Of a stretch of DNA of 28,962 bases, positions 4,767 through 28,376 are shown in pieces. Position numbers and translations under genes: made by a program. Source of the stretch: a virus; IMG/VR virus record IMGVR_UViG_3300025127_000184, positions 1 through 28,962 of that record; one strand, 5' to 3'. The first letter of the stretch is position 1. Every line of letters begins with the position of its first letter. Under the pieces are notes generated by a model. The model was not told the DNA's origin. It ran no database searches and worked only from the letters and a program-made list of their open reading frames with translations.

Positions 4767-6653
4767 ATGGGACAAGCTGCACTTCAGTACGATGAGTTTG
4801 AAGATATTGAACCGATAGAGGTTCCTGCTGGCGGCATCGCCTCGTTTTTGACGGCGACTGAGGGCTCTTGGGCCACGGATGACGAAGATGACTTGCCTCA
4901 AACCGGCATTGCTCAAGTCAAACGTGTAGCCGATCAACTCGCAACATATGGTCGTCACGAAGACGAATACATGATCCACGCTGCAGAAGGCGAAACCGTC
5001 ATACCGATGGAAGTCTTCCGCAAAAACCCAATTCTCAAAGACCGTATCTTCCAACAAATGCGCGACATGGGCATCGAGCCCGAGCGTTATGTGGTAGGTA
5101 ACGAGCTTAACTCCTTGAACCCGGTCACCGGGCAACCAGAATTCTTTTTGAAGAAGCTTTTTAGTGGGCTGAAAAAGTTTGTCAAAAAAGCGGTCACGGT
5201 TGTATTACCGATTGTGGGTGCTGCTTTCTTCGGACCTTTGGGCGCGGCTGCCGGATCAGGCATTGCGACACTCATCAACGGCGGTAACTTGAAAGACGCG
5301 CTCAAGTCAGCCGCTATTAGCGGCCTGACAGCCGGTGTGATGAACGGTATTAGTGGCGGAATGTCCGCTGCGGGCGAGGGCGGTAGTTTCTTCCAAGGCG
5401 CTAAAGCAGGCGCATTTGGTGAGGGGGCGTTAACACGTACTGTTGGTGAGGCTGCCGCTGCCGGTGGGGCCAAAGCTGCTGAAGCTGCTGCTGTGGCGTC
5501 ATCTTTAGAAAGTATTGCGAACCCGACTGCCGCTTCACAAGCCGCGTCAGCACAACAAGCTCAGTTTACTTACATGCCTGACGGTACAGCGGTGCCTGTA
5601 GCAAAAGCCACACCAACGGTTGTCCCACGCCCTCTTGATGCTGCGACGGAAGCTGCTTTTCGTAGAGCAGCTCCTACGGGCACTACAACTGCAGAAATAC
5701 AAGCTTTGGCTACCGGAGCACCTCTTTCTAGCTCTGCAAGCTCTGCTGGAGCGCCTAGTTATCTTGGGATGCAGGATTTAAATCCTCAACTTGACGTGGC
5801 TGCAAGCTCTGCTGGAACGACCGCATCAACAAGGCCACCAATCATTACTTCAGAGGGCGTGAACATCGGCTCTGATTTGGAATCGTACGCTGACGCTGGA
5901 GCTTCTGCGGGGGCTGGAGTTCCTCCGACAGGTCCCGCAGCGGGCACAACAGTCTCTGCAGTGCCTACCGCAACTGAAGCTCCCGGTGTAGTTGACAGCT
6001 TTAAAAGAATGTTTGGTATTGGGCCGGAGCAAGACGCTGAATTTTTCCAAGGTGCCCGAGATTTGTTTATGCCCAGTGCGGGACAACGTGCGGCAATTGT
6101 AGACGCTGCCGAAGCAGCAGGTTTGAAGCCCGGCACGCCTGAGTTTACTAAGTTTGTTGCAGAAGGAATGAAAGCAAGTGCAAGTCTGGCCCCCAGCGCG
6201 ATTCGCAGGTATGCACCGGGTATTGTTGGCTTGGCTGCTTTCGACTCATTGACTCGGGAAGAACCTACGGATTTCAACGTCGACGAACGAGTGACGGGTT
6301 TTGATCTACGAGAGCAAAACCCTTACACGTATGAGCTTGGCCCCGGCACTATGCGACTGCCGTCTACATACACGATTCAAGACGTCTCAAATCAATACAC
6401 ACCTATCAAAGCGCCTGTTTATCAGCCCGTCCCGTTGGGCGTGGCCCAAGGCGGCGAAATCGACAATTTTCCTCGCATGAACGGTCCGATCGAAGGCCCC
6501 GGCACTGAAACCAGTGACGATATCCCTGCTATGTTGAGCGACGGAGAGTTTGTATTTACGGCAAAAGCCGTGCGCGGCGCCGGTAACGGCAGTCGTCAAA
6601 ACGGAATGAAGAACATGTACGACCTTATGAGCAAGTTTGAGAGAATGGCGTAA
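4767..6653 (+). CDS. putative internal virion or tail protein (628 residues)
   Basis: The first of four very large virion genes in a row. Residues of about 65-110 form a compact charged domain (Ala-Ala-Glu-Gly-Glu-Thr-Val-Ile-Pro). A Lys-rich amphipathic stretch and glycine-rich hydrophobic segments follow at about 130-200, suggesting membrane insertion. The long middle is Ala/Ser/Thr/Pro-rich and low in complexity. The end carries Ser-Asp-Asp-Ile-Pro-Ala-Met-Leu-Ser-Asp-Gly-Glu-Phe-Val, a C-terminal signature shared by many uncultured marine phage structural proteins. An ejected internal protein analogous to T7 gp14/gp15, or a tape-measure-like protein, is plausible. No enzymatic motif is seen. 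The stop overlaps the next start as TAATG. Confidence 0.6.
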   Translation: MGQAALQYDEFEDIEPIEVPAGGIASFLTATEGSWATDDEDDLPQTGIAQVKRVADQLATYGRHEDEYMIHAAEGETVIPMEVFRKNPILKDRIFQQMRDMGIEPERYVVGNELNSLNPVTGQPEFFLKKLFSGLKKFVKKAVTVVLPIVGAAFFGPLGAAAGSGIATLINGGNLKDALKSAAISGLTAGVMNGISGGMSAAGEGGSFFQGAKAGAFGEGALTRTVGEAAAAGGAKAAEAAAVASSLESIANPTAASQAASAQQAQFTYMPDGTAVPVAKATPTVVPRPLDAATEAAFRRAAPTGTTTAEIQALATGAPLSSSASSAGAPSYLGMQDLNPQLDVAASSAGTTASTRPPIITSEGVNIGSDLESYADAGASAGAGVPPTGPAAGTTVSAVPTATEAPGVVDSFKRMFGIGPEQDAEFFQGARDLFMPSAGQRAAIVDAAEAAGLKPGTPEFTKFVAEGMKASASLAPSAIRRYAPGIVGLAAFDSLTREEPTDFNVDERVTGFDLREQNPYTYELGPGTMRLPSTYTIQDVSNQYTPIKAPVYQPVPLGVAQGGEIDNFPRMNGPIEGPGTETSDDIPAMLSDGEFVFTAKAVRGAGNGSRQNGMKNMYDLMSKFERMA

Positions 6654-17640: not shown

Positions 17641-19170
17641 ATGATAGATAAGTTTTCAACGATTTTCGATGGACTGCGGCTGGCCTACGGCACGTTTAAG
17701 ATCGAAGATCGCAACGCAAAAGGCAAAGCCACCGGTAAAGCGATGATCGTTCGTGAAGAGCGGACGCAAGAAACGTGGCAAATGCACCTTGATGGCACGC
17801 AGTCTGTCGGGATCATCCCGATCAACGAAGACAACCAATGCCGCTGGGGTTGTATCGACATAGACGAATACAACTTCGACCACACCGCACTGATCAACAA
17901 GCTCAAGAATCTGAAGCTGCCGCTAGTGGTCTGTAGGAGCAAATCTGGCGGCGCTCACGTGTTTTTATTTACAGACGACTTCATACCTGCCAAAGACATG
18001 CAAGACGTCTTAACGCGCCTCTCCGTCGGTCTGGGGTACGGTGGCAGTGAGATCTTTCCAAAACAGATTGCATTGAACCTAGATCGTGGCGATGTCGGCA
18101 ACTTTTTGAACATGCCGTACTTCGATCACGAAAACAGCTTGCGGTACGCTTTTAAGCCAGACAGTAGTGCAGCCACCATAGAAGAGTTCTTCGAACTGGT
18201 TGCGGAGAACGTCCAGACACGCGAGCAAGCGTTAGCTTTGATCGTTGAGCAGGACAGTAGCCTGCCGATACAGGACGGCCCGCCGTGCCTGCAGACACTG
18301 TGTAAAGACGGCATAGGTGAAGGCGCCCGCAACAATGGCTTGTTTAACGTCGGTGTGTACCTACGAAAGGCGTTTCCGGACACATGGGAGTCCGAGATTC
18401 TGCAGCACAACATGCAGTTTATTCATCCACCGCTGCCCTTGGGCGAGGTCAACTCCGTTGCCAAGCAGTTGCTGCGCAAAGACTACGCCTACAAATGCAA
18501 AGACGCCCCGATCAACTCGGTCTGCAACAAAGAACTGTGCATGACTCGTAAGTTTGGGATTGAGGCGGTGGTGTCTGGCGTGCAGATTGCCAACCTACGA
18601 AAGTACAACTCGGTGCCGCCGGTCTGGTTTTTGGACGTTGAGGGCAAGCCACTTGAGATGGGCACAGACGATCTGTTGAACCAAATGGCGTTTCAGCGGG
18701 CATGCGTCGAGCAGCTTAACTTCTACCCTCGCACGATGAAGAAAGACATGTGGGAGACACGGATCAACGCTTTGCTGACTGAGATGCAAGAGACAGACGG
18801 TTCTATCATCGAAGTGTCAGAGGACGTAAGCGTCAACGGCATCTTCAATGAGCACTTGGAAGAGTTTTGTACTGGGCACCAAGCGGCGGAAGAGAAAGAA
18901 CAGATCCTGCTCAAGCGCCCTTGGACAGACGAAGAGAAGAACGAGACATACTTCCGACTCAAAGATCTGGAAGGTCACCTGCTCAAGGCCAATTTCAAGC
19001 ATTTCAAGACGCACCAGATTGCACAGCGCCTGCGAGACATCAACGGTGAAGCCACGCAGCTACGGATTCAAAGCAAGGTCGTGCGGCTGTGGAAGATCCC
19101 AGCGCACAAGGTTACAAAGACGGTCATACGCGACCCACGGTTCACAGTAGATGAAGAGGTTCCGTTTTGA
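17641..19170 (+). CDS. DNA primase, archaeo-eukaryotic (TOTE-type AEP) family
   Basis: A 509-residue primase that makes the primers for phage DNA synthesis. The AEP core has Ile-Asp73-Ile-Asp75-Glu-Tyr (metal-binding DxD), then Arg-Ser-Lys-Ser-Gly-Gly-Ala-His106-Val (the sxH motif), and Val-Gly-Asn-Phe-Leu-Asn-Met-Pro further on. This arrangement matches primases related to the TOTE conflict-system family. A PriCT-like helical region follows (Ala-Arg-Asn-Asn-Gly-Leu-Phe-Asn-Val-Gly-Val-Tyr-Leu). Cysteines at 216, 221, 286, 295 and 300 could form a metal or Fe-S site. There is no helicase domain, so unwinding must come from the neighbouring helicase genes. The C-terminus is acidic and ends Pro-Phe. 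The stop overlaps the next TTG start. Confidence 0.85.
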   Translation: MIDKFSTIFDGLRLAYGTFKIEDRNAKGKATGKAMIVREERTQETWQMHLDGTQSVGIIPINEDNQCRWGCIDIDEYNFDHTALINKLKNLKLPLVVCRSKSGGAHVFLFTDDFIPAKDMQDVLTRLSVGLGYGGSEIFPKQIALNLDRGDVGNFLNMPYFDHENSLRYAFKPDSSAATIEEFFELVAENVQTREQALALIVEQDSSLPIQDGPPCLQTLCKDGIGEGARNNGLFNVGVYLRKAFPDTWESEILQHNMQFIHPPLPLGEVNSVAKQLLRKDYAYKCKDAPINSVCNKELCMTRKFGIEAVVSGVQIANLRKYNSVPPVWFLDVEGKPLEMGTDDLLNQMAFQRACVEQLNFYPRTMKKDMWETRINALLTEMQETDGSIIEVSEDVSVNGIFNEHLEEFCTGHQAAEEKEQILLKRPWTDEEKNETYFRLKDLEGHLLKANFKHFKTHQIAQRLRDINGEATQLRIQSKVVRLWKIPAHKVTKTVIRDPRFTVDEEVPF

Positions 19171-23258: not shown

Positions 23259-23513
23259 CTAAACCGTAACGCAGCGGCAGATTAGGTGTGGCCCAAACTG
23301 CCTGCAAAACTTTATTACTTTAAAACCGTTGGATGACTCTGGACAATGAACAGCGTCCGGTCCTAGCTGATCCCAATACGTTTTAGTCGTTGGGGCTACG
23401 CAGCCCGTTAAAAAAAGTAAAACCCCGCCTATCAGCCACACGGACGGGGGACGTGTTGGAAGGCCGTGATGTTGCCTTGGCTTGAAGTGGAGACGGGTGT
23501 TAGAGCCCGTCAA
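23259..23513 (-). CDS. putative small lipoprotein
   Basis: An 84-residue frame starting at TTG 23513, which overlaps the upstream RHH stop as TTGA. A basic head of about 29 residues is followed by a hydrophobic stretch and the lipobox Leu-Thr-Gly-Cys, then Val-Ala-Pro-Thr-Thr-Lys and a Cys-rich tail ending Cys-Arg-Cys-Val-Thr-Val. This could be an outer-membrane spanin-like or superinfection-exclusion lipoprotein. A shorter product could start at GTG near 23438. The hydrophobic codons coincide with a hairpin followed by T runs, so part of the signal may come from a terminator instead of a gene. Confidence 0.4.
   Translation of the reverse strand: MTGSNTRLHFKPRQHHGLPTRPPSVWLIGGVLLFLTGCVAPTTKTYWDQLGPDAVHCPESSNGFKVIKFCRQFGPHLICRCVTV
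23410..23449 (-). terminator. terminator-like hairpin, copy 2 of the GC-rich element
   Basis: On the minus strand CCCCG (23449-23445) pairs with CGGGG (23427-23423), helped by an inner CC/GG pair past a bulge, and is followed by TTTTACTTTTTTT. That is a plausible intrinsic terminator for the leftward RHH transcript, though it lies inside the putative lipoprotein gene. It resembles the hairpin after polA. Confidence 0.45.
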
Positions 23514-23680
23514 TCAAGTACACCAAGATCCCGCGCCTCTTGCAAGCGGTCTTCTTGCCATTCTTTGAATATTTTGCGTAGCTGACCACTAATAGAGCGG
23601 TCTTCTTCAAACGCGATTTTTTTGATGTCCCGGTAGACCTCAACAGGCACCAGAACCGATTTCCATTTAGATGTATCCAT
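23510..23680 (-). CDS. ribbon-helix-helix (Arc/CopG-like) regulator
   Basis: A 56-residue protein below usual gene-length cutoffs, translated from ATG 23680. It reads Trp-Lys-Ser-Val-Leu-Val-Pro-Val-Glu-Val-Tyr, a short beta strand. Two helices follow: Asp-Ile-Lys-Lys-Ile-Ala-Phe-Glu-Glu and, after Arg-Ser-Ile-Ser-Gly, Gln-Leu-Arg-Lys-Ile-Phe-Lys-Glu-Trp. Strand-helix-turn-helix with a Ser-x-Ser-Gly turn is the ribbon-helix-helix DNA-binding fold, whose dimers bind repeated operators. A perfect TTGACA lies 30 bases upstream. It probably represses its own or another phage transcription unit; the palindrome at 27996-28010 is one candidate site. It overlaps the lipoprotein frame by TTGA. Confidence 0.75.
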   Translation of the reverse strand: MDTSKWKSVLVPVEVYRDIKKIAFEEDRSISGQLRKIFKEWQEDRLQEARDLGVLD

Positions 23681-27862: not shown

Positions 27863-27885
27863 TCACTTCTCCTTTTTAATGAACA

Positions 27886-27906
27886 AAGCAGGCCGCCACG
27901 CTGCTT
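27886..27906. other. leader hairpin upstream of the leftward module
   Basis: AAGCAG (27886-27891) and CTGCTT (27901-27906) form a six-pair stem around GCCGCCACG. Reading rightward it is followed by GGATTTTT, so it might stop stray rightward transcription. Reading leftward it lies in the untranslated leader of the first gene. Confidence 0.35.
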
Positions 27907-27926
27907 GGATTTTTAAGCGTTCTTAT

Positions 27927-27992: not shown

Positions 27993-28019
27993 GGTGTTAC
28001 CAAAGGTAACAGGTGTTAC
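27993..28019. promoter_or_regulatory. palindromic operator with flanking half-site
   Basis: GTTACC (27996-28001) and GGTAAC (28005-28010) form a 15-base palindrome around AAA. GGTGTTAC occurs at 27993-28000 and again at 28012-28019, so the palindrome is combined with a direct repeat. It lies upstream of the leftward promoter and looks like a regulator-binding site. Confidence 0.55.
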
Positions 28020-28120
28020 TTCACGTAGCACGGGTCACGGCTCGGGGGACAAAAAAACGGCTTTGTATATAGAGTTTCTGGAGCAAATTACTTTTTTATA
28101 AAAAATATTTTTTTCAAAAT

Positions 28121-28201
28121 GGCGGTACAGGCGGTACGGCGGTACGTTTGCCCTGCAGGCCTTGTCGGAGAAGGCTTCAGCCGTACCACTACCCGTACCG
28201 C
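28121..28201. repeat. GGCGGTAC iterons forming a nested cruciform
   Basis: Three direct copies of GGCGGTAC start at 28121, 28130 and 28138. Downstream inverted copies pair with them: GCGGTACGG (28131-28139) with CCGTACCGC (28193-28201), and GGTACG (28141-28146) with CGTACC (28182-28187). Inside, GCCTT (28159-28163) pairs with AAGGC (28171-28175). Confidence 0.7.
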
Positions 28202-28339
28202 TGTTTTGCGATGGTGGGACGGTTTTAGAAAAAAGGGACTGTGTGTTATAGGCGTCTGAAAAAAAGTTTTTGTAAAAAAAATAAAAATTGCTGGGAAAGT
28301 CTATAACATTAGGGCGATTAACTAATATGGGATGTCCTA

Positions 28340-28362
28340 TTGACACCGGACGTTTGCATAGT
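28340..28362 (+). promoter_or_regulatory. putative promoter element for the rightward unit at 28377
   Basis: A perfect TTGACA (28340-28345) with CATAGT (28357-28362) eleven bases on, 14 bases before ATG 28377. If it is used, the transcript would have almost no leader. The spacing resembles the short-spaced elements at 16133, 23694 and 27927. Confidence 0.35.
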
Positions 28363-28376
28363 GTTAGGGTCTTGAG

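Follow-up and report, generated by a model that had tools for sequence, protein, structure and literature searches.

A conserved noncoding repeat element of marine bacteriophages as a putative iteron-type replication origin

PICI/SaPI origins carry two sets of short, element-specific iterons, which flank an AT-rich region in noncoding DNA immediately 3' of the initiator gene (PMC6092414). The origin of pRN1 is a stem-loop of ~100 nt located 3' of the primase-helicase gene, and a phage counterpart has been proposed in Bordetella phage BIP-1 (PMC4234260). The pac site of the phages SPP1 and SF6 covers the beginning of terS, and bent DNA is believed to guide its selection; its direct repeats differ between both phages, with TerS being similar (PMC4737164). 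The repeat element described here shares features with these systems and, judged from its sequence, is probably an iteron-type replication origin.

The element is located in the IMG/VR virus record IMGVR_UViG_3300025127_000184 of a marine virus of bacteria, and the window analysed comprises all 28,962 bases of this record. Genes of the window encode a virion structural protein, an SNF2 helicase, Pam3 gp33/gp34-like proteins, an AEP (TOTE-type) primase, a UvrD helicase and PolA. Past PolA follow small genes, mostly on the minus strand, and then a rightward operon opening with a small ORF and GP88. PolA and primase point to Pelagibacter phage HTVC023P, phage 023Pt_psg01 and phage DSL-LC04 as named relatives. 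The element lies 5 kb from polA, the nearest replication gene, and 9 kb from the primase gene. According to the original prediction no gene covers the site. Indeed, no conserved gene was found between 27863 and 28376, but an ORF of 103 aa on the minus strand (28035-28346) crosses the array. As similar frames are limited to the window's own group and vary in length (46-103 aa), we do not take it for a gene. Further to the left, a hairpin AAAGCAG..CTGCTT followed by GGATTTTT (27884-27913) is found upstream of the leftward genes and is conserved in the window's relatives. The motif CACGGGTCACGGCTC is present at 28029-28043, left of the element, and similar strings of the CACGGCTC type occur at the corresponding place in HTVC023P (GAACCACGGCTC) and DSL-LC04.

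The core of the element consists of three direct copies facing two inverted ones, just as originally predicted. Exact copies of GGCGGTAC occupy the positions 28121-28128, 28130-28137 and 28138-28145 on the plus strand, with start-to-start distances of 9 and 8, and the window contains no others. The inverted iterons on the minus strand (28181-28187 and 28193-28199, both reading CCGTACC on the plus strand) share this core with the direct copies, not the whole 8-mer. Between both arms there is a variable centre (28146-28180), differing in length and sequence between groups, with a 5-bp GCCTT/AAGGC hairpin (28159-28163/28171-28175) read from the sequence. In the window this centre is GC-rich, and the A/T tracts which had been noted next to the array are situated outside the iterons, the left one (28086-28119) occurring in all GGTAC-type relatives shown and the right, A/T-rich one (28223-28287) being seen again in relatives. 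The repeat search listed the predicted 9-bp stem GCGGTACGG/CCGTACCGC (28131-28139/28193-28201) and the 8-bp inverted repeat TGTTATAG/CTATAACA (28244-28251/28301-28308), too. The repeats exceed what chance would give: for exact triples of any 5-mer at 9+8 spacing the expectation is 0.027 per 29 kb, and five GGTAC/GTACC words within 90 bp were obtained in 2 of 300 shuffles.

The full element of ~240 bp (about 28066-28308) is larger than the array at 28121-28201. It is bounded on the left by a TATATAG-type box with adjacent TTTCTG/CCAGA (28066-28087, minus strand, outward reading TTTGCTCCAGAAACTCTATATA), which recurs in relatives, and on the right by a box (28288-28308, plus strand, outward reading TTGCTGGGAAAGTCTATAACA) mirroring the left one in relatives, e.g. 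as TTTCTGTAGAAATACTATATAG in L016. A reading of these boxes as T7-like promoters found no support from a single-subunit RNA polymerase of the phage, 11 records giving no PF00940 match; control genomes gave none either, making this a weak control. Left of the main array, the cluster GGTGTTACC..GGTAACA..GGTGTTAC (27993-28019) contains GTTAC, the iteron of other members, and presumably belongs to the element as an accessory part.

A pattern scan yielded 42 contigs with the same array, and after looser scans the GGTAC set comprised 62 elements. What they share is an A/T tract, three direct words and a centre whose length varies, and inverted words are nearly always present; most of them exhibit outer boxes of the TATATAG type, with the right one inverted. 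Exactly one array per record was present in 14 records (16-54 kb), one of which (L066) looks unrelated by its flanks. Furthermore, the array was found in all seven loci which had been fetched via the neighbouring GP88 protein, not via the repeat, and were long enough to reach the region. A search of 80 loci fetched via PolA for 5-mers of any sequence recurring at 9+8 pitch detected, besides GGTAC, arrays of GTAAC, GTTAC and GTAAT in the same kind of place, and scans for GTAAC and GTTAC gave at least 109 elements with A/T-rich left flanks. The centre measures 14-51 nt across three word types. The pitch is 9+8 or in some cases 9+9, and mixed arrays occur as well (L133, L112, L115, L126), so the tight 9+8 pitch and the uniform words come partly from the search patterns. 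Neither blastn against INPHARED nor a pattern scan of genome contigs gave a match. In a provirus-like locus (L374, about 5800-6050), about ten further GTTAC/GTAAC copies surround the array, which adjoins a helicase gene.

The words of the inverted arm follow those of the direct arm across word types. Counted downstream within each element, GGTAC elements have on average 1.8 GTACC and 0.4-0.5 GTAAC or GTTAC, GTTAC elements 1.8 GTAAC and 0.05 GTACC, and GTAAC elements 1.6 GTTAC, 1.5 further GTAAC and 0.09 GTACC. Comparison of the relatives shows a conserved noncoding element which keeps its geometry while the iteron word changes.

This tracking of words between the arms, together with fold z values of -2.4 and -2.7 for the plus and minus strand as RNA and -2.2 as DNA, would suit a structured RNA or cruciform, both named in the original prediction, with the fold itself as the function. 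These z values are modest, and the minimum-energy pairing does not reproduce the drawn stems exactly: the direct copies 1 and 2 pair with the inverted copies 2 and 1, respectively. Alignment of the relatives confirmed the element as conserved but not its stems. RNAalifold on 45 distinct GGTAC elements retained the invariant iteron pairs only and no compensatory pairs; in pair counting on these 45 elements the outer helix was marginally above shuffles and the middle ones were below, and the pairs of the GCCTT/AAGGC hairpin showed no covariation above shuffles. As the word was the criterion for selecting the GGTAC set, changes of this word cannot become visible in it. Predicted folds differ between groups, and an Rfam scan of the site gave no match. 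With only invariant iteron pairs and no convincing helix covariation in the GGTAC set, the drawn stems are mostly a by-product of one word standing on both strands, and a function of the fold itself is highly improbable. For a partition site, also suggested originally, a limited examination found nothing. Alternatively, the array might consist of operators or enhancers controlling a divergent or rightward (terminase/late) promoter. It has a divergent position in the window, and a possible promoter of the rightward operon, TTGACA-N16-TGTTAG (28340-28367, plus strand), was noticed by eye there and in relatives of the window's groups. A candidate regulator exists, too: an unlisted ORF just after polA (23510-23680, minus strand) encodes a 56-aa protein (MDTSKWKSVLVP...), conserved at this place in 27 loci and lacking a match in INPHARED, to which a ribbon-helix-helix (RHH) fold may be assigned from its sequence pattern, without a database match. 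Against such control, the promoter consensus scan did not report TTGACA-N16-TGTTAG, other groups have genes of the same direction on both sides and no promoter-like sequence, the exact iteron is confined to the array in the window, and the RHH-like protein is identical across word types; we consider this explanation improbable. The identity concerns L204 and L346, which bear different words, and the core columns of TerS are likewise identical between GTAAC and GTTAC phages (L204, L335). Both proteins were therefore rejected as readers of the variable bases, and for TerS this readout is all that the identity excludes. As no local gene swap was seen between L204 and L346 from about -4.3 to +3.8 kb either, the word reader is encoded elsewhere or is a host factor, or there is none and it is pairing that keeps the arms alike. 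In the latter case, base-pairing between the arms of an extruded-hairpin origin would replace a dedicated protein readout and the site may serve replication as well as packaging choice; the word could then drift between GGTAC, GTAAC and GTTAC in all copies, with TerS, RHH and other local proteins unchanged. We regard this as rather unlikely. Near-identical phage pairs with different words such as L204/L346 offer a natural experiment for finding the iteron reader, if there is any.

The position of the element relative to terS points to packaging. In related marine podoviruses it is mostly found ~200 bp upstream of terS. Among the matches listed, terS of this family starts no more than 400 bp downstream of 56 of 59 GTAAC and 36 of 44 GTTAC A/T-flanked elements with coverage, and terS is directly downstream in 92 of the 109 A/T-flanked elements listed; in the GGTAC set it follows directly in 18 and at a greater distance in 28. 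At a packaging-initiation site (pac or cosB-like), TerS would pick bent A-tract DNA with direct repeats a short way upstream of the terS gene, and TerL would cut nearby. This would be in line with the pac repeats of SPP1 and SF6, and with 15 contigs beginning up to 1 kb to the left of the element against 2 ending up to 1 kb to its right. On the other hand, the distance to terS is ~4 kb in the window's group, no pile-up of contig ends marking a cut was seen, and the left contig ends scatter over 2-3 kb in the structural region, for which reason fixed genome ends opposite the element were dropped. Two contigs of different groups, L038 and L084, both begin exactly 41 bases to the left of the array, which may mark a cut or a break in the assembly. 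Taken together, contig ends give an ambiguous picture. Moreover, the same kind of array adjoins primase/helicase genes where terS is far or not seen nearby (H4907, PG1, CRP-823, L374, L310). In view of these arrays we downgraded packaging as the only role; a packaging site, the main alternative to an origin, is possible but not likely, and packaging could also be an additional role of the element. Position alone cannot fully separate origin and packaging, because in many phages the terminase follows the replication module.

The iteron-type origin, an initiator-binding origin being one option of the original prediction, is now the best-supported reading and is favoured over packaging because of its resemblance to known origins. 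It is consistent with a noncoding site of ~240 bp in which direct and inverted iterons enclose a variable centre prone to hairpin formation, with A/T tracts on both sides and mirrored boxes at the outer ends. GTTAC/GTAAC arrays in unrelated phages and proviruses adjoin primase/helicase genes that belong to several families; among the 48 largest ORFs in the vicinity of arrays lacking this TerS, ten match a large-terminase family and many match primase/helicase families. Seven isolates have, in the gap that follows a primase/helicase gene directly on its 3' side, direct-centre-inverted repeats with words of their own (TGTGCGG in S1, TGTTGGG-like in pAN, LPPA56 and PG1, TCAGAC in H4907, TTGTAG in CRP-823 and TGTGAG in MinM1), and the terminase is not adjacent in several of them. 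These arrays were judged largely by eye, a strict three-copy scan flagging three of the seven (S1, CRP-823, MinM1) and inspection revealing those of H4907, pAN, LPPA56 and PG1. The GC-skew inflection to be looked for at the site was ambiguous: GC and GC3 skew were confounded or inconsistent between records, GC3 skew changing its sign across the element in G001 and stepping up in G003, with neither in G002. Against an origin speak this inconsistency, the distance of the window element from the primase gene, the neighbourhood of terS in most relatives, the A/T tracts outside the iterons, and the failure of TerS and RHH to read the variable bases. If the element is an origin, a replication protein (phage primase/helicase or host factor) would bind the words of ~9-bp pitch on each arm; the strands would then part in the A/T tracts or in the centre, and the element would serve as loading site for primase, helicase and PolA of the phage. 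In these marine podoviruses the origin would then be placed apart from the primase gene, at the start of the terminase side. Fixed geometry combined with changing words may provide a simple signature for putative phage origins in metagenomes.

HTVC023P and DSL-LC04, PolA relatives with 54% identity, have repeat-rich noncoding DNA at a comparable place before the terS operon, but with other words and no GGTAC array. In HTVC023P (L060, 11660-11790), several CTAGGAAA direct repeats are located in the noncoding region just before terS. DSL-LC04-like phages (L180, about 18530-18800; L058, 6540-6800, minus strand) contain around the analogous region a large CTATAG-bounded inverted repeat (TAATAGAGGTACTT in L180, CTATAGGATACACTCTC in DSL-LC04). 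The published description of HTVC023P-type phages that we searched makes no mention of an origin, iteron or pac site. Compared with the SPP1/SF6 pac (PMC4737164), the element shares direct repeats just upstream of terS, differing between relatives with similar TerS, and possibly bent A-tract DNA; this position applies to most relatives, the distance being ~4 kb in the window's group, and, unlike pac, similar arrays elsewhere adjoin primase/helicase genes instead of terS. With the pRN1-type/BIP-1 origin (PMC4234260) it has in common a noncoding, hairpin-capable site of about 100 nt, found 3' of primase/helicase genes in the isolates examined. Its stems, however, are repeated words without covariation among GGTAC elements, and in the window the site is separated from the primase and forms no conserved extended stem-loop 3' of a primase-helicase gene. 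In PICI/SaPI origins the AT-rich region is positioned between the iteron sets and the initiator gene is adjacent, whereas the window has its A/T tracts outside both sets and the element is not beside an initiator gene; other array-bearing phages do show the array immediately 3' of such a gene. Like PICI/SaPI origins (PMC6092414), the element has two sets of short iterons on either side of a centre, in this case three direct copies and two inverted ones; the words are specific to the element, and the site is noncoding with A/T-rich sequence.
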